Shown here: one piece after another, positions 26,219 to 38,229 of the stretch | Layout: the number at the start of each line of letters is the position of its first letter | Position numbering within the stretch: position 1 is the stretch's first letter | NCBI RefSeq assembly: GCF_040947875.1 | Contig: NZ_JBFRXN010000003.1 | Location: 992,001 to 1,056,000 of the forward strand | Source: Pseudomonas sp. MYb118 | GTDB taxonomy: Bacteria; Pseudomonadota; Gammaproteobacteria; Pseudomonadales; Pseudomonadaceae | Reading direction: 5' to 3' | Length of the DNA stretch: 64,000 nt | Notes under the pieces: model-generated | Told to the model about the DNA's origin: nothing | What the model saw: the letters and a program-made list of their open reading frames with translations, nothing else | The model's database searches: none | Program-made: the position numbers and the translations under genes

Positions 26219-26965
26219 TTACGCCTGCGCCTTGGCCTCGGCGAGCTGTTGCCACAGCGATGGAGCACCGGCGGATTTGGCGATCACTTCCAGGCGCGCC
26301 ATGTGTTGGGCCAGGTCGTCTTCGCTGGCGCGGATGATTCGCGTGCGCTGACGATCAGCCGGCAGACGACGAATTTCGCTGGCGGAGTTACCACCGCCTT
26401 CGCCATCAGACGCGTTGCCCGCCAACGACAGGCTGGTCTGCCCGCCGGTCATGGTCAGGTAGACGTCGGCGAGGATCTCCGAGTCGAGCAAGGCGCCGTG
26501 CAGTTCACGGCCGGAGTTGTCGACGCCATAACGTTTGCACAGGGCATCGAGGCTGTTCCGCTGGCCGGGGTGACGCTCCCGGGCCATCAGCAAGGTATCG
26601 AGGATCGAGCAATGCTGCGAAATATCGGCGCGCTCGTGCTGGCCCATCAAGGCAAATTCGTTGTTGATGAAGCCAACGTCGAACGCCGCGTTGTGGATGA
26701 TCAGCTGTGCGCCCTGGATGAACTCGAAGAATTCATCGGCCACTTCCGGGAAGCGCGGTTTGCCCGTCAGAAATTCGTTGGTGATGCCGTGAACACCGAT
26801 GGCGCCCTCGTCGCTTTCGCGATCCGGTTGCAGGTACACGTGGAAGTGCCGGCCCGTCAGGCGCCGACCGATCAACTCGACACAACCGATCTCGATAATC
26901 CGGTGGCCGTCGGTCACCGGCATGCCGGTGGTTTCGGTGTCGAGTACAACGGATCTGGTGGCCAT
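26219..26965 (-). CDS. dnaQ: DNA polymerase III epsilon subunit (3'-5' proofreading exonuclease)
   Basis: A 248-residue DEDDh exonuclease. Motif I is VVLDTETTGM (D9, E11), motif II is IIHNAAFDVGFINNE, and motif III is ELHGALLDSEILADVYL with the catalytic histidine. It proofreads for the replicative polymerase and binds the alpha subunit through its C-terminus. Its first 20 nt and leader form the left copy of a 51-bp direct repeat. A 10.6-kb insertion separates it from rnhA, its usual upstream neighbour, so its promoter now lies in, or is copied by, the inserted element. Confidence 0.95.
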   Translation of the reverse strand: MATRSVVLDTETTGMPVTDGHRIIEIGCVELIGRRLTGRHFHVYLQPDRESDEGAIGVHGITNEFLTGKPRFPEVADEFFEFIQGAQLIIHNAAFDVGFINNEFALMGQHERADISQHCSILDTLLMARERHPGQRNSLDALCKRYGVDNSGRELHGALLDSEILADVYLTMTGGQTSLSLAGNASDGEGGGNSASEIRRLPADRQRTRIIRASEDDLAQHMARLEVIAKSAGAPSLWQQLAEAKAQA

Positions 26966-26996
26966 CAGTGTTCAGCTCTCAATCGGTGATTCTTGT
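26946..26996. repeat. Left direct repeat (attL-like), overlapping dnaQ 5' end
   Basis: 51 bp identical to 37585-37635. It comprises the first 20 nt of dnaQ and 31 nt of its leader with the ribosome site. Similarity continues imperfectly to about 27014 (aaaggcgg shared). Confidence 0.9.
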
Positions 26997-27014
26997 CAAA
27001 GGCGGAGATGTTAA

Positions 27015-27545
27015 CACGCTCGGCGAACCGATTCAGGTAGACCGTGTCGACGGAATGGCGCGCACTGCTATCTGGTTTGCGATGATGACGAATTGGGCTA
27101 CACCAAGCCACCGCCCTGCCTCATGCTTTTGCTTGAGGAGCTCGAAGCGCTCCGACGCCCCAGAAACGTCAACCGCGTAATGGGTTTTGAGCGCGTTTTT
27201 TTACCTGGACATACACCTAGCCGGCTTCAGTGTTGAGCTCCACATCCTCGTCCCGCTCGACCAGCACTTCACGTACACCGGAAAATCGCACCAGGAGTGG
27301 GCAGCCCACAGCATACAAATGCTGATAAAGAAAACCATTATGAACAGACTCAACGCGCTTTAACTATGCCGGGCCTAGTACGTCACCGTGATGGGCCTGG
27401 TCATTCGATTGCATGACAATCAAATTTGGCATGGGGTAGAGAATTCTGCACAAGAAGTATTCGCTAGGCGACAGCGGGCGCTGCAGCAATTGTTGGTGAC
27501 CGATAGAGGCGAACGAAACCCGCCCCTTCTCTAGCCCAATCAGCA
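27015..27545. other. Island left margin, no convincing gene
   Basis: About 530 bp between the left repeat and the DUF3800 gene. Several short frames occur. One plus-strand frame without a good start (27066-27233, residues like CDDDELGYTKPPPCLMLLLEE) looks coding-like but is too short to name. No integrase was recognised. Confidence 0.5.
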
Positions 27546-28706
27546 CTAAATCGCCTCAAGCGACAGCAGCAGCTTTCTGATTTCAGAAAACTGGTCTGAT
27601 CCCAAGATATCGTAGTCCCCAACACTGCTAAGTCGATAGACATCGCGGGCCTTTTTGATCCGATCAAGAAGCGGAAGAATCTGACTCGATGCCAGCTCCA
27701 AAAAATCGTTGATGTCAGCCCTCGACCGGGGAATTTTGTAGCCCTTAGGGGCGCTGGCGATGATCACTTCAGCATCACGTAATTTCGCGATGCCACTGGA
27801 TCTGATCTTCTGCTCGGAGAGCCCTTGGAAGCCTCTGTCAGCAAGATGCTTGGCGATATCCCCAGTAGAGACGTATTCGTCGCCGACGAACTCGCTTCTG
27901 AATCGCAGGTAGTCCAGGATGCAGAGCTGAAGGCGCTCGTCCTCGTCGTGATGCTTGCCCACCTTGGTAAGGAATTTATCCGCCTGCTTTAGCGCCTGCT
28001 GATGAACACGATGATCTGCATACGCTGATTCATCCATGGGAGGAGGAATCAGCGACTGATAGCGCGGCGGCCATTCCAGGAGACCGATCGTGCGGTTACG
28101 CAAGATGTTCTTGTACACCTCAACGACCTCGCCGCTGGCCTTACCTTCGTAGATATGGGCGACTGTGCCGGCGAAGAAATCTGCAACCTGGATCAAAACA
28201 TCGTCCTTACTGCTTGCAGTGGTGAATGCCGAGTCACGAAAAAGATCGCCCGAGTATCGCTCAACGACATACTTCCTCAGGCTGGCCTGGAACTCCGGGC
28301 CACCATGCTCATCGACAGTCAGATGAAGATCCGGGCAATGTTCGAACAGGCGCGAATACAAGAGATTATTCACGTGTTTGATGAAGGTTTTTTTGAATTG
28401 CAGGCCACCATCTTGATAGACCCGGCTTTTATCGACGACGGTGAAATATAGCTTGAGCGGCAGCTCGGCAAGATCCACCAAAATCCTTTTGCGGCGATCC
28501 GCGTCCTTAGATTTAAGCCTGCTGGACTTTATCTCCCCAGATTGGAAGTGCCTGGCTCTCACACCGCCAGCAAGCTCGTAAGCCCGAGGCAGATCCTTCT
28601 CGGCAATAATGATCGAGCACACCACAAAAAAACCTGAGCTTCCCGATTTGGAGGTATCCAAGTCGTGATTACCCGACTCATCGACAAATGCGAATGTCCT
28701 TCCCAC
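27546..28706 (-). CDS. DUF3800 domain protein with C-terminal winged-helix-like region
   Basis: A 386-residue protein with a GTG start at 28706 (cggag site 7 nt before). The DUF3800 signature opens the protein: FAFVDESGNHD (D9, E10, S11, G12). Further family acids follow in HLTVDEHGG (D132, E133) and VLIQVADFFAGTVAH (D176). DUF3800 proteins are thought to have an RNase-H-like nuclease fold and are frequent in phage and defence islands. The C-terminal third (STGDIAKHLADRGFQGLSEQ followed by a beta-hairpin GYKIPRS) looks like a DNA-binding winged helix, which is not universal in the family. Nuclease activity is inferred. Confidence 0.75.
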   Translation of the reverse strand: MGRTFAFVDESGNHDLDTSKSGSSGFFVVCSIIIAEKDLPRAYELAGGVRARHFQSGEIKSSRLKSKDADRRKRILVDLAELPLKLYFTVVDKSRVYQDGGLQFKKTFIKHVNNLLYSRLFEHCPDLHLTVDEHGGPEFQASLRKYVVERYSGDLFRDSAFTTASSKDDVLIQVADFFAGTVAHIYEGKASGEVVEVYKNILRNRTIGLLEWPPRYQSLIPPPMDESAYADHRVHQQALKQADKFLTKVGKHHDEDERLQLCILDYLRFRSEFVGDEYVSTGDIAKHLADRGFQGLSEQKIRSSGIAKLRDAEVIIASAPKGYKIPRSRADINDFLELASSQILPLLDRIKKARDVYRLSSVGDYDILGSDQFSEIRKLLLSLEAI

Positions 28707-28966
28707 GCAGTTACTCCGTCATCCCAAGCGCACAGCGCTGCCATGGCATGACCCTGGCCTCAAACTGGTGCCTGGAGAGATACCCCATCAAGCCCAACAC
28801 CTACCACGCTGATAGCTTTATGCCACAATACTAGCAGCTGCGCGAGAGCCGGCACTGGGCATGACTATCCACGGTTTGATAGCGATGTCCTCTGTTTCAG
28901 CGCGATGCCAAAGAGCAGTCAAGACGTGATCGTCGAGGTTGAAGGATCAGGGAGTTGAAGGTTGTG

Positions 28967-29788
28967 ATGACGCATAGAGTTTTGGATTGGCGCAACCGAC
29001 GTTCATGGTTACAACACATCCGTTCATACGCAAAACCGCTGCTGACACCGAAACTAGTAGCGGTACTGGAGCGGCGCAGGCCCAACTGCTGGTCGGATGT
29101 CATGGACTGGCTTCCAGATCACCATGACGTGGTACCTGAATTCTGTGATCGGATGTCCTCGTACTACACACATTTCAAAGCCTTTCATGGCTGCCGCCCA
29201 GAATCGCTTTCGAGCTACTACGACCAGGGGCTTCGGGGACAAAACGCCGACTCGATCATCAAGAAATTTCGACAGCTTTTTGCAGATCTCCCGCCGGCCA
29301 GCCTCGACCAGGCCATTGAGGAGATGCAGCACCGTGAATCAAGTGAACGGGGCAAGACGTGGCTGTCCGGGGATGACCGCCAGATGGTAAAGGACTTCGG
29401 TCACTACATCATCAACGGCAGCGAATACCTCTTGGCACTGGCAGCGAAGCTGAGCAGAGGACATTATGAGGAAGACTACAGGCTCCGGTTGCGGACAATT
29501 GGCATTCCGACTGTACTGGAGGTCGACATTCCCATCGAGCTCATTCCACCAGCGCAGAAGTTGGAAGTAGCGAAAATGATATTGTCGGAATGGGGGCAGC
29601 TTCGGACAAAAAGCCCTTTGGGGATGTCGTCCTCACCGTGCTACGTAGTGCGCTCAGACATTCCAGCAGAGTGCATCAAAGCGCATTACCATCCGACAAG
29701 GATTCGGGACCTCCATCACGACATTCCTACCTACATCAACAAGGCAGTGCGATGTGATCACTGCCCACCAGCCCCTGAGTCTGACTAG
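28967..29788 (+). CDS. Unassigned protein, possible ADP-ribosyltransferase-like fold
   Basis: About 273 residues from the ATG at 28967 (gaagg site); TTG or GTG a few codons upstream are alternatives. I do not recognise a named family with certainty. An F-H-G-C-R segment (H74, G75) is followed 15 residues later by YYDQGL, recalling the HG(T)...GL pattern of PARP/Tpt1-like transferases. A second conserved-looking block is FGHYIINGSEYLLALAAKL (Y154). A third strand, VLEVDIPIELIP, carries E185, and a HYHPTRIRDLHHD tail follows. The order H-Y-E would fit the ART core. This fold call is inference. It converges with the HEPN gene at 29849. Confidence 0.45.
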   Translation: MTHRVLDWRNRRSWLQHIRSYAKPLLTPKLVAVLERRRPNCWSDVMDWLPDHHDVVPEFCDRMSSYYTHFKAFHGCRPESLSSYYDQGLRGQNADSIIKKFRQLFADLPPASLDQAIEEMQHRESSERGKTWLSGDDRQMVKDFGHYIINGSEYLLALAAKLSRGHYEEDYRLRLRTIGIPTVLEVDIPIELIPPAQKLEVAKMILSEWGQLRTKSPLGMSSSPCYVVRSDIPAECIKAHYHPTRIRDLHHDIPTYINKAVRCDHCPPAPESD

Positions 29789-29848
29789 ACCGGGGCCTCA
29801 ATCCGCGCACAGGTGCTGGCCCCTGCACCCTTGCAGGTAATCCAGAGC

Positions 29849-30754
29849 CTACTTGCCTGAGTAGGCCTGATCGTGAAGGAACACGATAGCCGAGGCCGTC
29901 AGATTCATCGCATACTTAGCGATATGCTCAGGCACTACCTTCGCGTTTTCTCCTGCGCCATGGGCTGAGCTCAGCTTATTGCGAAGCGTGCTCACAACCA
30001 TCAACGGAGTCTCCCAAAAGCCTTCCATCTGCGTCTGGGCCATGATGGTTCTCAAAAGCTTTGCAGTGCTATCGCCCTCGCTGTAGCCGAAACGCTTCTG
30101 GCCGCAAATCACCTTCATGACGCTCTCATAACTGGCATTGCACTTGGTGACACAGTCACCGAATTTCCGATGCCTGTAGTCTTCAAGCGCGGCCATAAAC
30201 TCGGTGTTGGCATAGCGAAATGCCGGTTGCTGGAGCAACTGAAGTGCCGGCTCAATTGCCGTTTCATGGATCACCTGACTGTCCTTGGGGATCACCTTCG
30301 ATTCTTCAAGAAGCCTTATTCTCTGGCTACTGCGAAAATCGTCGCTGTGCCAAGGCTCCCAGACCTGTTTGGTGACAAAGTAAGGCAGGTCATCAATGCT
30401 CAAGAACTCGTTCAATCGAGTCACGACGTCCTCTTGCCGTCCACCTAGGCACATATGTGCGTCTGTCTGCAGGATGTACTCAACTGCGTCCAGAAAGTGG
30501 GCATCACTACACGTGGTTAGGAACTGCAGGGTATCGTCCTGAGGAGACATGCCCTGACGCTGACTCAAAGAGACACGCCCCACCAAGTAGGTCAGCTTTC
30601 CATGAAGATGTTCAAGAGCCGGAAGTAGGCTCCCGTCGCCAGCGTCGCGCAGCAGCATAAGCGTCCGTTGCCTGAATCCTGGGGTCAGCGGTTTTCTGAC
30701 TGCTGCCTGGTTTACCTTCCTGCGGGAAAAAACGTTGAAAATATTCCCTATCAC
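29849..30754 (-). CDS. HEPN-domain abortive-infection-like protein (STM4504/CBY_0614 type)
   Basis: 301 residues from a GTG at 30754, which has an aggaa site 7 nt upstream; a TTG six codons earlier is possible but lacks a site. The N-terminal half reads like STM4504/CBY_0614 proteins (NVFSRRK, then GFRQRTLMLLRDAG). The C-terminal helical domain has E210 (CNASYESVMKVICG) and the HEPN-type R-N-x5-H at R258, N259, H265 (LRNKLSSAHGAG), the catalytic signature of HEPN ribonucleases. It is the third gene of a minus-strand operon with another HEPN/AbiJ-type gene. RNA cleavage during phage attack is the family-level expectation, not shown here. Confidence 0.65.
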   Translation of the reverse strand: MIGNIFNVFSRRKVNQAAVRKPLTPGFRQRTLMLLRDAGDGSLLPALEHLHGKLTYLVGRVSLSQRQGMSPQDDTLQFLTTCSDAHFLDAVEYILQTDAHMCLGGRQEDVVTRLNEFLSIDDLPYFVTKQVWEPWHSDDFRSSQRIRLLEESKVIPKDSQVIHETAIEPALQLLQQPAFRYANTEFMAALEDYRHRKFGDCVTKCNASYESVMKVICGQKRFGYSEGDSTAKLLRTIMAQTQMEGFWETPLMVVSTLRNKLSSAHGAGENAKVVPEHIAKYAMNLTASAIVFLHDQAYSGK

Positions 30755-30922
30755 ATCATCTTCCTGCTGCAAGTTAACTGAGGATCGTATTTCTCGCCCG
30801 GCAGCCGAACCTCCCAGGCAATTAAGTCAGTCAGCGATCGGTCAACGGGTGCAGTACCATCTACCGACCGCCTGTACGCGATCGACTGAATTCCCCGTCC
30901 ACCTGGCACCTATCTAAGGCGG

Positions 30923-31459
30923 TCATTTCACGATCAGCGCCTCTTTCCCTGTCTCAGGATCACGAGACCACCTAGTGTCGCAAGGGTCATCATTCCCGAC
31001 CTGGAGAAATACCGAAATCACCTCATCGATGCTGATGAAGTACAGGCATTTATCCTTGTCGAGATCTGAGCTGAAGAATGCACCGTCCAGTCCGCCACCC
31101 TCGGATATACAGGGCGCGAAGACGAAGCTATGAATGATCCGCCCGCATATAAACATAACGTCCCGCCCCTCTTGGCCTGCCTTGGAGAGGTCGTAGAGCT
31201 CATCTAGCCGGTGGTTGTTACGCCATGTCACGCGCTTCAGGTTTGGGTGCTTATGAAGGGGGATAGAAAGGTGGCGGATCTTGTCGGTGATCTTGGCAGG
31301 AGCCTCTAGTAGCTTCCTGACGGAGTAGAAGCCGATGAAGATGTCGCGCTCTACCTCTGCAAGTTCTTCATCAGACAGAGCACTGACCGTTTTGAGGTGC
31401 TCAAGACGATCTGCCATCTCTAACAGTGGCTGTTTCCAGTACCAGCTCTCCCAGATCAT
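30923..31459 (-). CDS. Unassigned 178-aa protein in the HEPN/AbiJ operon
   Basis: The ATG at 31459 has an aagga site and starts 18 nt after the AbiJ-type gene, so they are co-transcribed. The opening is W-x-W-K (MIWESWYWKQPLLEMADRL), with a conserved-looking FIGFYSVRKLLEA helix, LDELYDLSK, an ICGRIIHSFVFAP segment and a final strand-rich LYFISIDEVISVFLQVGND. I recall comparable proteins as unnamed hypotheticals in many bacteria. No catalytic motif is obvious; IIHSF could place a histidine near an active site. A partner, antitoxin or sensor for the neighbouring HEPN proteins is possible. Confidence 0.6.
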   Translation of the reverse strand: MIWESWYWKQPLLEMADRLEHLKTVSALSDEELAEVERDIFIGFYSVRKLLEAPAKITDKIRHLSIPLHKHPNLKRVTWRNNHRLDELYDLSKAGQEGRDVMFICGRIIHSFVFAPCISEGGGLDGAFFSSDLDKDKCLYFISIDEVISVFLQVGNDDPCDTRWSRDPETGKEALIVK

Positions 31460-31477
31460 CTTGTGAGTCCTTTTAAG

Positions 31478-32281
31478 TCACTTCGATTTCTTGATCAAAT
31501 AGCTGCTGACCGAGGCGCACAGGCCAACTACGAGCTCTGCGTCTTCGAAAGACGGCTCACGCCCTTCCTGGATGTGCCGTCCGAACTCCGAGGCGTACGC
31601 CCAGGTTTTGATGACAGCCTGATCCAATGGAGCTGGAATCAGCGTTCGGGAATCATTCATGATCTTCCCGAGGGTCGCTTGTTGGTCACCAGTGACCTGC
31701 CGAGCGACACACTCCAGCGAAGCCATGGCATGCTGTATCGCCCCCGTCGGGTCTGGAGACGGTCGGCGTGAGAGATCGGCAATCGCCTGGTGCAATTCCT
31801 TGCTGGCCGTGACGTGCCCATTTTGATGCTCAGTTTCTTTCGCCGAGGTCAAAACCTGCTCAAAGGATTCAGAACCACGGATTTCGATGCGACCTTCCAG
31901 CAGCTTCCACCCTATGCCGTGCTCAATGAAGAACTCGTTCAGCTCAGTAGTGAAGTGCTCGTACACGCCAGAGTCATAGTTACGGTTGCCGAGGTAATCA
32001 TCGAGCCGCTCAATGACGTCATACACCTTGAACCACTTGCACTGCTCAAGCCGCCGAACGTTTTCCTCGTGGATATTGGGCCTCTCACTCCAGTTCTGCT
32101 TGTCGGGCAAGACCTTCAATGCCTGGCAGATTATTTGGCGCAGGTTTGATGGCTTGAGACCACATTCGTAGCTCAATTGAATCAGATACTCCTGCAGCGC
32201 TTGCGGTGCGTCTTCCCGGACAGTGATTTCGGCTTCATCGACCTGCGAGAAACCGTGACGCCTTGAAAATGAGTCCTTCAT
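31478..32281 (-). CDS. AbiJ-NTD4/HEPN-like abortive infection protein
   Basis: 267 residues from the ATG at 32281 (ggagggtaagg site). The N-terminal region resembles the AbiJ-NTD4 pattern: SFSRRHGFSQVDEAEITVRE, a long helical stretch, then WFKVYDVIERLDDYL and FFIEHGIGWKLLEGRIE. The C-terminal helical domain has E190 (AMASLECVARQVTG), LIPAPLDQAVIKTWAYASE, R235-H236 (FGRHIQEGREP) and SFEDAELVVGLCASVSSYL, which is the layout of HEPN-type C-termini in Abi proteins. It leads the operon continuing with 30923 and 29849. The defence role is inferred from family resemblance and island context. Confidence 0.6.
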   Translation of the reverse strand: MKDSFSRRHGFSQVDEAEITVREDAPQALQEYLIQLSYECGLKPSNLRQIICQALKVLPDKQNWSERPNIHEENVRRLEQCKWFKVYDVIERLDDYLGNRNYDSGVYEHFTTELNEFFIEHGIGWKLLEGRIEIRGSESFEQVLTSAKETEHQNGHVTASKELHQAIADLSRRPSPDPTGAIQHAMASLECVARQVTGDQQATLGKIMNDSRTLIPAPLDQAVIKTWAYASEFGRHIQEGREPSFEDAELVVGLCASVSSYLIKKSK

Positions 32282-32299
32282 CCTTACCCTCCGCCTCAC

Positions 32300-32515
32300 C
32301 TAGTCCACCGGCAAATCGCCAGAGCGATCTGGCTCGATAATGCCTGACATTCCGGGCTTGGGATAGGTAACGGGAATCGACGCTTGACTTGGCCTGAAGA
32401 CTGCGCGTTCACCCGCCGCGGTCGATTCAAGCCACGACCTTTGAGGAGCGGCCTCAGGTCTTGCCCGAGCTACAGTGAAGGGTTTCGTCACTTTCGCCAC
32501 CGTATGATTAGACAC
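32300..32515 (-). CDS. Small hypothetical ORF upstream of the AbiJ-like gene
   Basis: 71 codons from a GTG at 32515, ending 18 nt before the AbiJ-like start and in the same direction. The peptide is basic, proline-rich and low in hydrophobic residues (VTKPFTVARARPEAAPQRSW). It could be a leader peptide or small antitoxin-like gene, or simply an open frame by chance. I cannot assign it. Confidence 0.3.
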   Translation of the reverse strand: MSNHTVAKVTKPFTVARARPEAAPQRSWLESTAAGERAVFRPSQASIPVTYPKPGMSGIIEPDRSGDLPVD

Positions 32516-32712
32516 CTTAACACTCAGCCTAAGGCCATAAAACTTCGTACCATCCGCCGCTGATCACACTCACTTGCTAGGAAGACCAGTGGCAACCTGC
32601 CCTAAGTACTCACGTTTTTTGAAAAAAAACCTCAAACCGCGACTCTACGCCGGCGCCTCAGTCATCCCCTAAAGCCACATGGTTAGCAAAAGCCATCACT
32701 TATTCAGGGCTG

Positions 32713-33688
32713 ATGGCCAACGCCTCTCAGGTCTTGATGCTAGCTGTAGCCGTAGTTGGCTATTTCTACACAGTGCGGCCAGTCTTCCAGAAAGAGGTGG
32801 TCTCCGAGGATCTCGCTCGCCTGCAGCTTGAACAACAAAAGCTTCAGCATCAAATGGAGGGGCAAGCGGAATCCCTGCAAGCTGGGGAAGCGAAAAATAA
32901 GGATCTGGCTGATCAGCGAGCTTCAATCGAGAAGCAAATTGTGACCCTCACCAGAAAGTAGGGGAAGCTGAGAGAGAAATCTGCCCGCGATGCAATGCTT
33001 CGGGCACAACGGGCAACAGCTGAAGCCAAAACGGCTGAATCGACCCTTGCCGGCCTTCAAGCGCAACACTACGGGCTGAAAGTGCAAAGCTTCTTAGGCC
33101 AGACAGCGCTGCCAAGCAGCATGATTCATGTCCTGAACAGAACAGCAAGCACACTACCTTTTGTGGTCTTCAAGGATGTGAAAACAGGCTCCATCGCAAA
33201 AAAATTACAATCGTTGGAGCTTCAGCCCCCTCGATCTAGCGAAGTCGACACTCTCTCAACTGCAAGAGCAAGCCAGCAAGCAATCCCGAGCGCCCAGTGC
33301 GGCCATCGATGCATTGTTGGTGCGCAATTATGAAAAGGGCATGATTGAGCATACTCAAGACCTGACATGCCCCACGCCTGCATATGCGGACTGGCAGTCT
33401 GCATTTCAGTCGGCAGTGCAGGCAAGCGAAGGGAACATTCGGGACTGCGTGCGCGGATCTTGGGCCGATCAAGTAGCACGGGAAGGCTGGTCACCTTCCG
33501 ATATTCGCAACCACCAAAAAACTGACTCTTGGAAACAGCTCGAAAGCAGCTTCAACGCCTCATGCAAATTGTCCTACAGCTATCTGATGCGCACAGCGTT
33601 CGAAGACGCCTGGAAGAAGGCTGATGAGGCCTGCGACGAGCGTCGGATGTACGTTAATCAGCTCGTGATGGGCACGCCCTTCAAGTGA
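32713..33688 (+). pseudogene. Broken gene for a membrane-anchored coiled-coil protein
   Basis: One reading frame starts at 32713 with a single transmembrane helix (MLAVAVVGYFYTVRPVF) followed by a long coiled coil (LQLEQQKLQHQMEGQAESL). It meets an in-frame TAG at 32959 and continues in the same frame (LREKSARDAMLRAQRATAE) to about 33230. The sequence then resumes one frame over (LDLAKSTLSQLQEQASKQS ... ACDERRMYVNQLVMGTPFK) to the stop at 33688. The shift lies at a run of five C at 33226-33230. Two lesions in one gene indicate decay, though a homopolymer sequencing error could account for the second. The original function is unknown. Confidence 0.65.
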
Positions 33689-33758
33689 CGCCTGACAGAG
33701 TTTACGGTGGTCACATCGCCCTCAACCGAAGAAATCGCCAAGCTGTTCCGAAATCGCA

Positions 33759-34270
33759 ATGCCAAGGATTAATGACTGGTTTGTATCGCTCGTATGCCAA
33801 CGCATGAGCTTTCTGAACTGGACGATGCTGGATCAGTCGCGTACTGGGCGCTCAGCCAGCGGTATGGGAGCCGGCAAGATTGATGGTTGGGTAATGGATA
33901 GCAGGGGCAAACCGAATTTCCTATTCGAAAGCTTTAGACTTGGGAGTTCCATTGACACAAAAAAGTTGATGAACATCTAAACAAGATAGGCAGATATAAC
34001 TCAATGGGCATGAGCCCGACATTCGTAGTAGTCTATGCTGCCACGCACAACCTCCCACAACTATGCGACTCCTACTTCAAGCACATCGAATAAATTGAAT
34101 ACACAGACTTTGACGACGACTACAAAAGCGTTTTAGAGCTGATAACAAGCCAGGGAAATAGCTTTAAAGCCAAGCATTACGAGGGAACACGTAGAACAAA
34201 TAGACCCGACGCAACCATTTACCACCATTTATTAAACCTTAAGCATCCTACTGATAATACCGGGACATGA
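33759..34270 (+). pseudogene. Remnant of a nuclease-like gene
   Basis: Frame 33759-33960 (GAGKIDGWVMDSRGKPNFLFESFRL, split here) continues after a frameshift in an A6 run at 33959-33964 as VDEHLNKIGRYNSMGMSPTFVVVY. It passes a TAA at 34091 and ends at a TGA at 34268. The order G-K-I-D ... F-E-S-F-R-L-x-S ... H-L-N-K-I-x-x-Y-N resembles PD-(D/E)XK restriction-like nuclease domains. It follows the broken coiled-coil gene and may once have been its operon partner or its C-terminal domain. Confidence 0.5.
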
Positions 34271-34622
34271 TTTGAAAACCCCAGAAGCAAACTCGCATCA
34301 CAACATAATTATTCGAGAAATTTTGGCTCTGTGCCCATATCATGGCGCAATAGTCGGAGAAAAATTTTGCCTAACTGAGCGCCAAACAACTTTGGAGCGA
34401 TACCTATCCTTCTGCTCGCTCCCAGCGTCTCATGACAGTAAGCAGTGTGGCGACTGCTAGATCATTGCAACGGGCTTTGACTAACCCGGTGCATCATACC
34501 GCAAGATAAAACCCGCTTCAGAAATGGTCATAGTGACCGACAAATTGCTAGCCTTGCTAGCCACTGTGACTCACCGTAAAATCGGGAGGCCAGGGATTTG
34601 ATATGTTGACCGGAGAGAAAAC
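34271..34622. other. Intergenic stretch before the DUF5677-like gene
   Basis: About 350 bp with one 62-codon plus-strand frame (34272-34460, Cys/His-containing) that lacks a ribosome site and similarity to anything I know. The promoter for the 34623 gene should be here; a ggagag site precedes that start. Confidence 0.4.
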
Positions 34623-35528
34623 ATGGACTTTGTTGAAAGCCCAGATCACTACACAAAAGATTTTCTAGCTCACCAACGGCATCTCCTAGAACTTGGAGAG
34701 CTCCAGCAGAAAATCTCTGAGACGCTTTATGAAGTCAGTCTCGATGACAAAGGCGATTTCAAGCTAAGCACAAAAGTCTGCTGCTACAAGGTGGCAAATG
34801 TAGTGACAGACTTAAATAACGGAATTCTACAGAGCTTGAAAATAAAAAGTTATAGCGCTGCCGAAGCGCTATCAAGGACATCCTTAGAAAACTCAATCAA
34901 CTTAATGCTATTTAGTGATGACAAGTCATCGGCGCGACCTAAGAGCTTTTTGCTGGGATACCTCAACAAGACATTAGATAACGCACGAAAATGGCATAAA
35001 TACGGAGTTAAAAACGATCACCCAGAGTCAGCTAAACGAGGATTAGAGCTGGAGAAATCATTCTTAGATTTAAAATCCATGTTCGGCGACCTAGAACAAG
35101 GCACCAAGGGCTGGCCCGACGCTTACAGCCGTTTCGAACAAGCCGGCCACGCCCTCTTTTATCATGTCTTATTCTCAAGTGCCTCCGACTCTACTCACGG
35201 CTTTGGCAGCGATGTATTCAATCAACTTCTAGGCGAACTCATACCTTACCAAGATAACGAAAAGCTAGCCTACTTCAAAAGAACAGAAGCTGAAAAAATC
35301 TCTTTCGCTTATTACTTGGCCACTAACGCGGTACTTTTTTATTGCGCAGCTGCATCGCGTATAGCTGCACGCGCAGAGGATCTCGCTGCCGTTGATAAAT
35401 TTGTGATTATAGCAAGTGCATTGGAAAGCATGCTTTCAGAGCATGAGCATCTTGCTATCACTTGCTTGGACAGCCTTGCGCAAGCTAGGAAGCGGCTAGA
35501 AGAGATCAAGAGCAGCGAAGATGCATAA
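34623..35528 (+). CDS. All-helical DUF5677-like protein
   Basis: 301 residues, predicted almost entirely helical, soluble. The segment SYSAAEALSRTSLENSINLML followed about 110 residues later by SASDSTHGFGSD recalls DUF5677-type proteins, in which an R-x-x-x-E helix and an S-x-x-x-H segment are conserved. Such proteins are often found in mobile and defence loci with no proven function. Start ATG with ggagag 5 nt upstream. AT content is clearly higher than in flanking core genes. Confidence 0.5.
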   Translation: MDFVESPDHYTKDFLAHQRHLLELGELQQKISETLYEVSLDDKGDFKLSTKVCCYKVANVVTDLNNGILQSLKIKSYSAAEALSRTSLENSINLMLFSDDKSSARPKSFLLGYLNKTLDNARKWHKYGVKNDHPESAKRGLELEKSFLDLKSMFGDLEQGTKGWPDAYSRFEQAGHALFYHVLFSSASDSTHGFGSDVFNQLLGELIPYQDNEKLAYFKRTEAEKISFAYYLATNAVLFYCAAASRIAARAEDLAAVDKFVIIASALESMLSEHEHLAITCLDSLAQARKRLEEIKSSEDA

Positions 35529-35895
35529 GCAATTTGGGGCCGGGCCAAGTAAGCCCTTCGAATGCAAACGAAGGACTCCCTCGGGGCATTTTATATAATT
35601 GAGACTGCGGGGAGTTGGAAGGCTGAAAATGACATAGAGAACGCATCAGATTCAGTAAGGCCGAGGAGCAACTGGCACAGTCGATCACCTACAACACAAT
35701 CAATATCGAGAGGATGGAGAATTCTCAGCTTCAGCAGTTGACCCAAAAGTCAGGGCAGTATAAAAATAAAGGTTAGTCGCGCAAGGCACACTAATTACGC
35801 TATTGAGCTACAAGCAAATTAATAACCATGTATTTCTGGACTACTTCGTGCAGCCCTCTATTGCGACAAAAGCAGCAAGATACTGAAGCCTAACT
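35529..35895. other. Gap with a short coding trace
   Basis: No complete gene. A plus-strand frame without a start codon near 35650-35777 (KAEEQLAQSITYNTINIERM) looks like the end of a lost coding sequence. The rest is AT-rich without pattern. Confidence 0.4.
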
Positions 35896-36960
35896 TCACG
35901 AAGATATTTTCACACCATCGATTTCTGCAGACGCTGAAAAAACTTGACGAGCTGCAGCCTTAACACAAATCTTATTATACCCAGCAAGTATGTCAATATC
36001 ATTAACGTGAAGTACACCATGAATTTTTCCACCGAGAGCAGCCATGCACTCACCTCTAGCAGACTCAGGAATATTGAGCTGCTTCATTGTCAAGTCCAAA
36101 AAACGCCCCCCAACAAAAGTATGCTGAATAGAAAGAACACAATTACTAGAAACATTCATGTAAGCAACCAGACCATCAGAACTCGAATCCTTGACCACAC
36201 CCGTATCCGTAAGCAGCGCGCAGCGAACATCAAAAACATGTATGTGAACCATATTGACGAACTCTTTCGCGAAAAAGAATTCTTCAACATACCCCTCCAA
36301 ACTTGATTTAATCTTGTCGTCCGAATAAAGAAACAACAATAACAACCTAATCCACTGCCTATACTCGCCCGGCAAAACACCATACACCTTGCATATATAT
36401 TTTTCCTCCTCGCAACTCTTGCTCGCCAGCGCCAAATAAAGCTGAAGAGCCTCAGGACTATCAATACAATGATCAACATATGGAGCGAAGTTTCTAATGA
36501 CCTCCCTGATTTTATATGGATTCCTTAACCAATTCATCACCTTATAAGTATAGATATATTTAACATACCCCAAGAGATCAAAAAACTGTAGCCCTTTAAC
36601 CTCTTCCAGATTGATGCCGCCACTCGCTGCCTTCTCCGAGCCCCTTGCTAAAGCAACCCAATCAAGCAAGGACGAAACCTGAGCGGGATAGCCATCTTCG
36701 TACCTTTTGAACATAGCTTCAAAGTTAACTCTCTCTTTATCCCCAACGCGAGCAATGGTAAAAAGATCCTGAAATGAAAGATTTTTTTCGATAGATTTTT
36801 TCTTTCCTGGGCGAACTGCCGGCTCTTTCTTGTCAAGAATATCAAAACAGTATATCCCTGCACCCTTCGATGGGGCGGACGAATAAGAATTGACTCGCTG
36901 TTCCGCCTGAGAGACAAAATGTTGATTATGCGTAGTATTTGTATATTTTTCAAAACTCAT
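35896..36960 (-). CDS. Unassigned protein, very AT-rich gene
   Basis: About 354 residues from the ATG at 36960 (atggatgg precedes it); a GTG at 36999 is an alternative. I do not recognise it with confidence. The N-terminus has T-H-N-Q-H-F-V-S-Q-A-E-Q-R, loosely recalling the H-x-V-P-Q opening of DUF4238 proteins, followed by IYCFDILDKK. A basic patch (GKKKSIEKN) and long helices fill the middle. The end is strand-rich (LSIQHTFVGGRFLDL, KIHGVLHVNDID). Codon use is strongly A/T-ending, unlike both the core genome and the HEPN operon, so it probably came from a different donor. Confidence 0.5.
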   Translation of the reverse strand: MSFEKYTNTTHNQHFVSQAEQRVNSYSSAPSKGAGIYCFDILDKKEPAVRPGKKKSIEKNLSFQDLFTIARVGDKERVNFEAMFKRYEDGYPAQVSSLLDWVALARGSEKAASGGINLEEVKGLQFFDLLGYVKYIYTYKVMNWLRNPYKIREVIRNFAPYVDHCIDSPEALQLYLALASKSCEEEKYICKVYGVLPGEYRQWIRLLLLFLYSDDKIKSSLEGYVEEFFFAKEFVNMVHIHVFDVRCALLTDTGVVKDSSSDGLVAYMNVSSNCVLSIQHTFVGGRFLDLTMKQLNIPESARGECMAALGGKIHGVLHVNDIDILAGYNKICVKAAARQVFSASAEIDGVKISS

Positions 36961-36999
36961 AAAACCATCCATTGAATTATCAATATTAAAATATGACAC

Positions 37000-37584
37000 C
37001 AGCAGAATAACTAATCAACCAAAACCAACATTCTGACCAACTTCAGGCACCCCAAAAACCAACCCAACACAAAATTTAAGAATACCAATTCTAGATACTT
37101 TCGTTTTTAGTTTGATGATTTCAGCCTTAGCGGCGCTGTAGGTAGCGATGCTGGCCTAGGCGAATCGACTCGAACATGACAGGGCGACCCAGCACGCCGA
37201 CGCATTTCGGAGCACCTGCTCAGTGAAGATCTGGAGTGTTTAGGCGATGGAAAGCCTGCCAAACTATTGTTCGGTCGAGCGATGACTATTAGCCGCCCAA
37301 GCGTAGACGGCGTTGCAATTTGTGCAAAAGCAGGCAGCGCAAAATATCTACTAGGGGCGGCGCTTGAGGCTTCGAGGCTTCGGAGCCTTATCTGTTTAAG
37401 GGCTTTGGGGCGCAGGTGTAGGCAAGGGCAAGTGTAAACCATGACCCTTGCATTCAGGCCACGGCTTACAAATTCCCTCGTAGAGCGGTGCCCTAGCCAA
37501 AGACAATGGCCTTCAGCTCAGTATACGCGGGGCCGGACGGCAAAATGGCTTACGTTTACACACCTCCACCAAAAGTGGTGCCAC
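37000..37584. other. Island right margin with coding traces, no intact gene
   Basis: About 580 bp. A plus-strand frame around 37190-37437 (ISEHLLSEDLECLGDGKPAK) has coding character but no start. A 40-codon frame (MAFSSVYAGPDGKMAYVYT...) runs from 37508 through the right direct repeat to a stop at 37628. These may be remnants of an element gene adjacent to the att site, where an integrase would be expected, but I cannot identify one. Confidence 0.45.
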
Positions 37585-37604
37585 ACAACGGATCTGGTGG
37601 CCAT
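37518..37604 (-). other. Truncated dnaQ start fused to island DNA
   Basis: The right repeat retains the dnaQ ATG (37604), leader and six full codons (MATRSV). The frame then runs into island sequence and stops after 28 codons. This is the scar left on the rnhA side by the insertion. Confidence 0.6.
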
Positions 37605-37635
37605 CAGTGTTCAGCTCTCAATCGGTGATTCTTGT
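37585..37635. repeat. Right direct repeat (attR-like)
   Basis: 51 bp identical to 26946-26996. The first difference beyond it is G for C, which changes TTGACA (left copy, minus strand) to TTCACA. Confidence 0.9.
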
Positions 37636-37678
37636 GAAAGGCGGGGATCTTAGCATGGCCGTTGACCGGGTTGCGCCT

Positions 37679-37754
37679 ATCGCGAGCAGGCTCGCTCCCA
37701 CAGAGGATCTGTGGCGTTCACAAAACCCAGTGTGGGAGCGAGCCTGCTCGCGAT
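37679..37754. repeat. REP pair (tail-to-tail) in the rnhA-dnaQ gap
   Basis: Reverse REP first, forward REP second, about 26 bp apart. It belongs to the original rnhA-dnaQ intergenic space, outside the island. Confidence 0.9.
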
Positions 37755-37776
37755 GGCCCCACCTCGGCCTCAGGAC

Positions 37777-38229
37777 TCAACCCTGCTTGAACCCCCGAAC
37801 CTCATCCACCCCGCGGTTGGCCAACTGGTCCGCCCGCTCGTTGCCATGATGGCCGATGTGCCCACGCACCCACTTCCAGGTCACGTTGTGGCGGTTGACC
37901 TGTTCGTCCAGCTGCTTCCACAGGTCGGCATTCTTCACCGGTTCCTTGGCCGCGGTTTTCCAGCCGCGCTTCTTCCAGTTGGCCATCCATTCATTGATGC
38001 CCTTCATCACATACTGCGAGTCGGTCACCAGCAGCACGTCGCAGGAGCGCTTGAGCTCTTCCAGGCCACGGATCGCGCCCATCAGCTCCATGCGGTTGTT
38101 GGTGGTATTGGCTTCGCCGCCCCACAGTTCCTTTTCAACGCCCTTGTACACCAGCAATGCGCCCCAGCCGCCGGGGCCGGGGTTGCCTTTGCAGGCGCCG
38201 TCGGTGAACAGTTCTACGCTATCGCTCAT
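37777..38229 (-). CDS. rnhA: Ribonuclease HI
   Basis: A 150-residue RNase H. The active-site acids are in [19 protein letters not shown] (first Asp), [16 protein letters not shown] (Glu), [12 protein letters not shown] (second Asp) and [10 protein letters not shown] (last Asp, with the flexible-loop His just before in GHIGHHGNE). It degrades RNA in RNA:DNA hybrids. It normally lies immediately upstream of dnaQ; here the island intervenes. The methyltransferase at 38320 is upstream in the same direction. Confidence 0.95.

Follow-up and report, generated by a model that had tools for sequence, protein, structure and literature searches.

The 10.6 kb lying between dnaQ and rnhA in Pseudomonas sp. 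MYb118 are very probably the stranded right part of a GInt, a mobile island of a known kind, that inserted at dnaQ and would since have lost its left end, while dnaQ regained a start of native type. In the window (the whole stretch of 64,000 nucleotides analysed here), they are enclosed by an exact direct repeat of 51 bp (Table 1). As the preliminary description stated, the two copies are identical over this length, and the dnaQ-side copy consists of the first 20 nt of dnaQ followed by leader. The imperfect similarity, put there at about 18 bp past the repeat, turned out to be longer: without gaps it extends to 88 nt at 86%, and both copies run on as native-type dnaQ leader, up to about position 27048 on the dnaQ side and into rnhA on the other. 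When a 42-nt piece of the repeat was searched in the 6.58-Mb genome with up to 3 mismatches, it was found at two places only, both being the repeat copies.

Table 1. Features of the island between dnaQ and rnhA and of its borders (window positions)
Feature	Position	Strand	Remark
dnaQ	26219-26965	-	intact, native-type N-terminus
Direct repeat copy, dnaQ side	26946-26996		native-type dnaQ start (20 nt) and leader
dnaQ leader with GTTAAC (-10-like, by eye)	26997-27048		native-type; nearest relatives differ from those of the rnhA-side leader
23 bp of unexplained origin, presumed illegitimate junction	27049-27071
NTPase gene remnant, 3'-truncated, frameshifted	27072-27546	-	homologue is a 968-aa ORF in G250
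DUF3800 protein	27546-28706	-	weak PADLOC match, PDC-M04A
277-aa protein	28955-29788	+	without confident family
DUF7014 / Abi_C protein	29849-30772	-	STM4504/CBY_0614 family, under its cut-off
178-aa protein	30923-31459	-	without family
AbiJ_NTD4 protein	31478-32299	-	PADLOC PDC-S32
Fragmented reading frame, interrupted by stops	32713-33688	+	without family
DUF5677 protein	34623-35528	+
367-aa protein	35896-36999	-	DUF4238, far under cut-off
GInt 3'-end motif pair TGTAAAC...CTTACA	37433-37470		32 nt from start to start
GInt 3'-end motif TTTACA	37555-37560		TTACA ends 27 nt before ACGGATCTG of the displaced dnaQ start
Element end at attR	37561-37584
Direct repeat copy, rnhA side	37585-37635		displaced native dnaQ start (putative attR relic)
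Remainder of displaced native leader and spacer	37636-37776		REP-like hairpin at 37666-37767
rnhA	37777-38229	-

The adjacency of rnhA and dnaQ, mentioned in the preliminary description for P. aeruginosa, is found in relatives: of 148 further Pseudomonas genomes, 132 have a gap not exceeding 609 bp and seven one of 1.3-3.0 kb, while in the other nine rnhA falls outside the retrieved stretch. With such short spacers in relatives, the 10.6-kb interval is not ancestral, and the island is an insertion. When occupied sites were searched for a common recombinase, nine further genomes proved to have gin recombinase genes right at dnaQ, either as a four-gene gin operon (G005, G010, G011, G024, G084 and G138) or as GinA adjoining dnaQ together with GinC (G245, G419 and G420, the GinC of G420 having one in-frame stop). 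These islands supply a new dnaQ start. In seven of them the native start is still recognisable and has been pushed towards rnhA; G024 and G138 show no such start and do not enter the attR counts. In these relatives the junction falls within dnaQ, a few bases from its start, the start on the element side is not the native one, and no long repeat was found at the junctions. From these comparisons, the 5' end of dnaQ emerges as a recurrent target of site-specific insertion and as a GInt hotspot in Pseudomonas. In other genomes whose rnhA-dnaQ gap measures 0-6 kb, the interval contains no displaced dnaQ start like that of the window; only short matches (10-22 nt) occur, in L006, L017 and L055. In the literature searched, no paper names dnaQ as a target of GInts or islands, and one report (PMC2530875) deals with a Photorhabdus duplication taking in dnaQ. 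The gene is also absent from the main text of the papers describing GInts (PMC5385486) and SEs (PMC10214605).

At the rnhA-side junction, the distance from TTACA to the displaced dnaQ start that follows it is exactly 27 nt, both in the window and in 8 of the 8 other recognisable dnaQ attR sites. Five of these (G005, G010, G011, G084 and G245) were located without the motif, and three (G419, G420 and G421) via a pattern permitting 25-29 nt. None of 41 empty-site cores, taken from the 139 rnhA-linked genomes wherever the core matched within one substitution, carries TTACA at this register. The 3'-end motifs follow no published criterion and were defined in the present analysis from the dnaQ islands. 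The gaps of 117 and 27 nt between the TTACA motifs and the core are those of G011. The three-motif pattern TGTAAA-TTACA-TTTACA, drawn up with knowledge of the window sequence, has a single occurrence in the genome, at the rnhA-side end (0.003 expected from composition, 0 for the reversed control), and in 2.9 Mb of retrieved, partly overlapping DNA only at this end and in the dnaQ GInt of G011. The middle motif of the window is CTTACA, not TTTACA, and GTTGACA, which follows TTACA at 7 of the 8 other attR sites, is missing both here and in G011. Beyond the motifs, the displaced copy continues natively into rnhA, with 85% identity to G158 over 645 bp. On this evidence the rnhA-side junction can be identified as a GInt 3' end.

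The dnaQ side is different. The native-type start and leader are joined to a truncated NTPase pseudogene, in the position expected for ginABCD, and homology to the NTPase gene of G250, whose product matches Cap4_nuclease and AAA domains, begins abruptly at 27072. Searching the window with ginA-D by tblastn gave chance-level matches only, none in the island with E<0.5, and neither GinA (E≤1e-50) nor GinC (E≤0.001) has a match in the window's genome. A domain scan of ten island ORFs, smaller or broken frames apart, gave no integrase at E≤1, so that the integrase near the att site typical of a single-integrase ICE or IME is lacking among them. A GInt attL is absent from the island. A tRNA-type att site was rejected, the window containing no tRNA. 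Judged by its sequence, this junction is not a GInt end, and the NTPase remnant would mark the lost left end of the island. The absence of a visible integrase at a replication-gene target, found unusual in the preliminary description, is put down to a missing recombinase end and not to an integrase-free integration. The gin operon of the window element itself has never been seen, the gin evidence coming from the dnaQ islands of relatives.

The two leaders point to different nearest relatives. Of 48 distinct relative leaders, that of G158 matches best over the first 51 bp and also along the rnhA-side leader, with none surpassing it, but for bases 52-103 on the dnaQ side 30 of the 48 match better than G158. 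The idea that the foreign signal is limited to the leader was dropped, since among 57 loci G158 ranks only 6th for the dnaQ 5' half and 4th for rnhA, with small margins.

Taking the GInt right end together with a dnaQ side that is not of GInt type, the 51-bp repeat would consist of a displaced native start and a restored native-type start. Comparison with the junctions of relatives rules it out as the integration core. The site-specific integration advanced earlier therefore holds as regards insertion and the recurrent dnaQ 5' target, not as regards the 51-bp core. Similarly, integration had been thought to have rebuilt the dnaQ 5' end, whereas the present start is native-type and looks restored after loss of the left end. 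We propose that the GInt integrated inside the first codons of dnaQ, supplying the start on the dnaQ side and displacing the native start, leader and spacer, now at 37585-37776, towards rnhA. The dnaQ-proximal end, with the GInt attL, ginABCD and most of the NTPase gene, would have been lost later, and a native-type dnaQ start with about 100 bp of leader would fill its place. The start was probably restored by recombination, and the likeliest route would be homology-facilitated illegitimate recombination with incoming empty-site DNA of a related strain, which recombined within dnaQ at one end and was joined illegitimately into the NTPase gene at the other. Two native-type starts would result, now appearing as the 51-bp direct repeat. 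An identity of 51 bp with sharp divergence beyond it is explained only if gene conversion followed as a second step or if the donor was very close. Having neither gin genes nor attL, the island is expected to be immobile. None of the genomes compared is a conspecific with the intact element or the empty site. The remnant model leaves the 23 bp before the NTPase homology unaccounted for.

Alternatively, the last step could have been a Campbell-type insertion, in which circular DNA, e.g. a mis-excised GInt piece from another strain carrying cargo, attR and a displaced dnaQ leader, enters an empty site by one homologous crossover within the dnaQ start. This would yield the 51-bp repeat directly; it competes with the proposed model over the final step alone and leaves the GInt origin of the right end untouched. 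It predicts the observed dnaQ side (host start, foreign leader, island) as well as the observed rnhA side (GInt 3' end, start, host leader), but requires a circle joining the leader to the middle of the NTPase gene, and no such circle or donor was seen; we consider it unlikely, although to be reckoned with. Long identical repeats over a gene start are a familiar arrangement for elements targeting gene ends. Such a repeat, with a promoter-like leader on the element side, would suit an element with a single integrase (lost or supplied from elsewhere), a 51-bp core and a rebuilt dnaQ 5' end. However, the right end has the GInt 3'-end motifs in register, GInts at dnaQ carry non-native starts and no long repeat, and the left end cuts through a gene, which makes this model improbable.

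It is more improbable still that the island is a non-autonomous GInt derivative mobilised in trans by gin genes elsewhere. In favour of such elements, a GInt-type attL adjoins dnaQ and an attR adjoins rnhA in G421 (Pseudomonas sp. dw_612), whose genome, as searched, gave no match to GinA (E≤1e-30) or GinC (E≤0.001), so that gin-less islands may exist at this site. Yet dnaQ and rnhA of G421 are apparently on different contigs, and gin genes could thus be lost in an assembly gap; with no attL in the window and no gin match in its genome, there is at present no end for a trans reaction. Tandem duplication and assembly artefact can both generate direct repeats, but the window lies more than 1 Mb into one contig of a four-contig genome, and the DNA between the repeats carries genes absent from empty sites. 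Duplication without an empty-site counterpart, which the preliminary description had raised, is rejected by the empty sites present in relatives, and the chance of either origin is minimal.

As in the GInts described by Bardaji et al. 2017 (PMC5385486), the window island is inserted at a fixed site at the 5' end of a gene, its short 3' end next to attR shows conserved AT-rich stretches, and its cargo is diverse. The fixed chromosomal target, dnaQ, is common to the gin-bearing islands, which also have their gin genes at the dnaQ end as GInts do. In contrast, the window island has neither attL nor a ginABCD operon at its 5' end, and its repeat is perfect over 51 bp whereas GInt repeats are imperfect and of 10-17 nt (PMC5385486), a type of repeat not found here. 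Gene 3 of the gin-bearing dnaQ islands has homologues (31% and 28% identical) in four-gene operons beside ssb, on an E. coli and a P. aeruginosa plasmid, and ssb is a GInt target class (PMC5385486). SEs, strand-biased circularizing integrative elements (Idola et al. 2023, PMC10214605), likewise carry their recombinase genes at one end, as an operon of four (intA, tfp, intB and srap), together with target specificity and inverted terminal repeats, and SE blocks were found only in Gammaproteobacteria. Among the gene-3 homologues 34 of 64 are from Escherichia, and plasmid records occur in Rhizobium (2) and Azospirillum (1). An SE assignment for the relatives was set aside by host range and ssb context, not by direct protein comparison. 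SXT/R391 elements, which use a single integrase, rebuild the 5' end of prfC upon insertion. They share with intact dnaQ GInts the insertion in a gene 5' end and the element-supplied start; the dnaQ start of the window, however, is of native type and not element-supplied.

DnaQ is the proofreading subunit of the replicase, and intact GInts give it new first codons and new upstream DNA. We tentatively suggest, as a possibility somewhat short of an even chance, that cells reclaim the native dnaQ start from empty-site DNA, thereby shedding the recombinase end and fixing defence-like cargo. If so, direct repeats of gene starts would be scars left when islands are domesticated rather than when they integrate, and an island without gin genes would represent an expected end state at the dnaQ hotspot. 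TTACA placed 27 nt before a displaced start can mark a GInt end at dnaQ even without a gin operon, so that decayed islands and captured cargo become recognisable.

Concerning the cargo, megablast of the island against plasmids gave no match, and NCBIfam and PHROGs added little to its annotation. The AbiJ_NTD4 gene has a 96% counterpart in G255, near a gin operon. This operon belongs to a separate lineage (GinC about 30% identical) and adjoins a gene resembling copD by eye; the case thus indicates cargo shared with a GInt and was not retained as proof for the window. Several of the island genes look defence-like.

The 51-bp direct repeat claimed in the preliminary description is real; its copies lie 10.6 kb apart, and no third copy of a 42-nt part of it was found in the genome. 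The insertion also claimed there is borne out by comparing the spacers between dnaQ and rnhA across 148 other Pseudomonas genomes (G numbers): the two genes are separated by no more than 609 bp in 132 of them and by 1.3-3.0 kb in 7, these together being the 139 in which rnhA is on the fetched stretch. In six of the nine stretches devoid of rnhA (G005, G010, G011, G024, G084, G138), four co-oriented genes of 403-463, 533-560, 691-713 and 136-184 aa point away from dnaQ, the first at 72-459 bp from it in five genomes and at about 2 kb in G138, and rnhA is found at the far end, 20 to 108 kb off. For G013, G054 and G080, rnhA is at least 125 kb distant or on a separate contig, and inspection by eye showed no gin-type recombinase operon following dnaQ, within 6.6 kb in the case of G054. 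Three further genomes, G245, P. koreensis DSM 16610 (G419) and P. fluorescens C2 (G420), were counted on GinA and GinC alone: GinA directly adjoins dnaQ and a GinC match is present, that of G420 with one in-frame stop. The search of occupied sites for a common recombinase, also proposed in that description, gives gin genes at dnaQ in nine genomes. GinA-family matches at E<=1e-50 occur in 24 of 398 Pseudomonas genomes, part of them away from dnaQ. The island is a genuine insertion, and its site is a genuine hotspot.

We name the gin-bearing dnaQ islands GInts because of their four-gene operon, the ssb context of homologues and the published definition. As presented in Bardaji et al. 2017 (PMC5385486), ginABCD is the defining feature of GInts, ssb is a frequent target, and insertion takes place at the 5' end of a gene, with an outward promoter and imperfect repeats of 10-17 nt. 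Gene 1 of the operon encodes a Phage_integrase domain; in gene 3 the match to this domain stays below threshold. Gene 3 homologues occur in 64 plasmid records, the operon context being taken from three: in E. coli pEQ011 (locus L281) and P. aeruginosa pPAD8 (L283), a four-gene operon with a gene 3 homologue comes immediately after ssb, and in Stutzerimonas p1_PM101005 three of the operon genes are annotated, with no ssb listed in the opened stretch. In pEQ011, avs4 comes after the gin-like operon, and a gene annotated as an AbiGi-type antitoxin stands farther along. SEs are a similar class as described by Idola et al. 2023 (PMC10214605), a likeness drawn here from the published description.

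In seven of the nine gin-bearing islands the displaced native dnaQ start can be made out on the rnhA side (attR); in G024 and G138 it cannot. The start on the dnaQ side (attL) of gin-bearing islands differs from the common native type, e.g. ATGGTTAACAG. TTACA lies exactly 27 nt before ACRGATCTG in the window and at all eight displaced-start sites, those of the seven islands and of the gin-less G421. It is so placed at none of the 41 empty-site cores, which are the ones that matched within one substitution among the 139 genomes with linked rnhA. The sites of G005, G010, G011, G084 and G245 were located independently of the motif, those of G419, G420 and G421 via a pattern allowing 25-29 nt. Both TTACA gaps (117 and 27) are the same in the window and G011. 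The pattern TGTAAA-N-TTACA-N-TTTACA, drawn up with knowledge of the window, has a single match in 6.58 Mb, located at the rnhA-side end of the island (reversed control 0; expected 0.003). Against this assignment, the middle motif in the window is CTTACA, not TTTACA, and GTTGACA, which comes after TTACA at 7 of the 8 other sites, is missing from the window.

GInt attL and gin genes are absent from the left, dnaQ-side end, and no integrase domain was found in the ten island ORFs scanned, in keeping with the earlier remark that no integrase was visible. At this end, a native-type leader runs to about 27048; after 23 intervening bases, similarity to a G250 NTPase gene sets in abruptly at 27072 (82% over 27073-27510). 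The full ORF in G250 is 968 aa long, and a scan of its N-terminal 678 aa gave Cap4_nuclease and AAA matches; the window retains DNA for roughly the first 180 residues, with stops and frameshifts, and the lost part is on the side expected for the gin operon. In G250 (L201, G250:C1:15070-20509), a multi-gene cassette of another kind (426, 729, 182, 487 aa) is found close to this ORF; of its proteins only the 487-aa one has a Pfam Phage_integrase match.

Leaders were compared with 48 distinct ones from 60 loci of relatives, identical leaders being merged and two loci without core and G245 (displaced copy) left out. G158, the nearest empty-site relative among the genomes compared, comes out on top for both the first 51 bp and the rnhA-side leader; for dnaQ-side bases 52-103, 30 of the 48 match better than G158. 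Over 54-57 loci, G158 ranks first for dnaQ, the gene downstream of it and the gene beyond rnhA, and, by small margins, sixth for the dnaQ 5' half and fourth for rnhA, so a wider foreign tract is not in evidence. The left end would have been replaced when empty-site DNA recombined in and became linked to the NTPase gene by an illegitimate join, and the 51-bp identity may come from a close donor or from gene conversion. Insertion of a circle by single crossover is a fair rival for this end. An element of known kind, minus its engine, accounts for the island, and the surprise is moderate: dnaQ as target, a rewritten dnaQ start and a repeat of two origins.

G421 (Pseudomonas sp. dw_612) shows ends of GInt type at dnaQ (attL, L275) and at rnhA (attR, L272), and its genome gave neither a GinA match at E<=1e-30 nor a GinC match at E<=0.001; as a gin-less island it is suggestive only, its ends being apparently on different contigs. 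By eye, the dnaQ-rnhA gap of G041 (L151) has an attL-like dnaQ start and leader of GInt kind, with LysR-like and CoA-transferase-like genes behind them; no GinC match was found, and the arrangement is possibly the scar of a lost GInt.

Cargo genes with family matches are those for DUF3800, Abi_C/DUF7014, AbiJ_NTD4 (PADLOC PDC-S32) and DUF5677. The interrupted or degenerate frames are consistent with a decaying island, as far as can be read from the sequence.

Coordinates of the repeat, its flanking genes and cargo features
Feature	Position	Strand
dnaQ	26219-26965	minus
Repeat copy, dnaQ side	26946-26996	
Cargo protein, no confident family	28955-29788	
Cargo protein, no confident family	30923-31459	
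Interrupted or degenerate frame (by eye)	32713-33688	
Interrupted or degenerate frame (by eye)	about 33700-34470	
Cargo protein, no confident family	35896-36999	
Repeat copy, rnhA side	37585-37635	
rnhA	37777-38229	minus

The island interior matches DNA of 44 of 398 genomes at E<=1e-20, the window's own included. The longest other match among those listed is 3.4 kb, G332:C1:4023631-4027014 against 28948-32342 at 91%, in a region without dnaQ, rnhA or gin genes. This stretch is a candidate mobile defence cassette; its four genes (277-aa protein, Abi_C/DUF7014, orphan, AbiJ_NTD4) form one block in G332. The AbiJ_NTD4 gene also occurs in G255, at 96% and next to a gin operon of another lineage, and there the counterparts of 31346-32469 and 35643-35716 are nearly adjacent. 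The 32470-35642 segment (about 3.2 kb), containing DUF5677 and interrupted frames, therefore looks like a later insertion in the cargo of the window, or else a loss in G255. A REP-like hairpin (37666-37767) lies in the displaced rnhA-dnaQ spacer, and similar sequences occur in native spacers of relatives.
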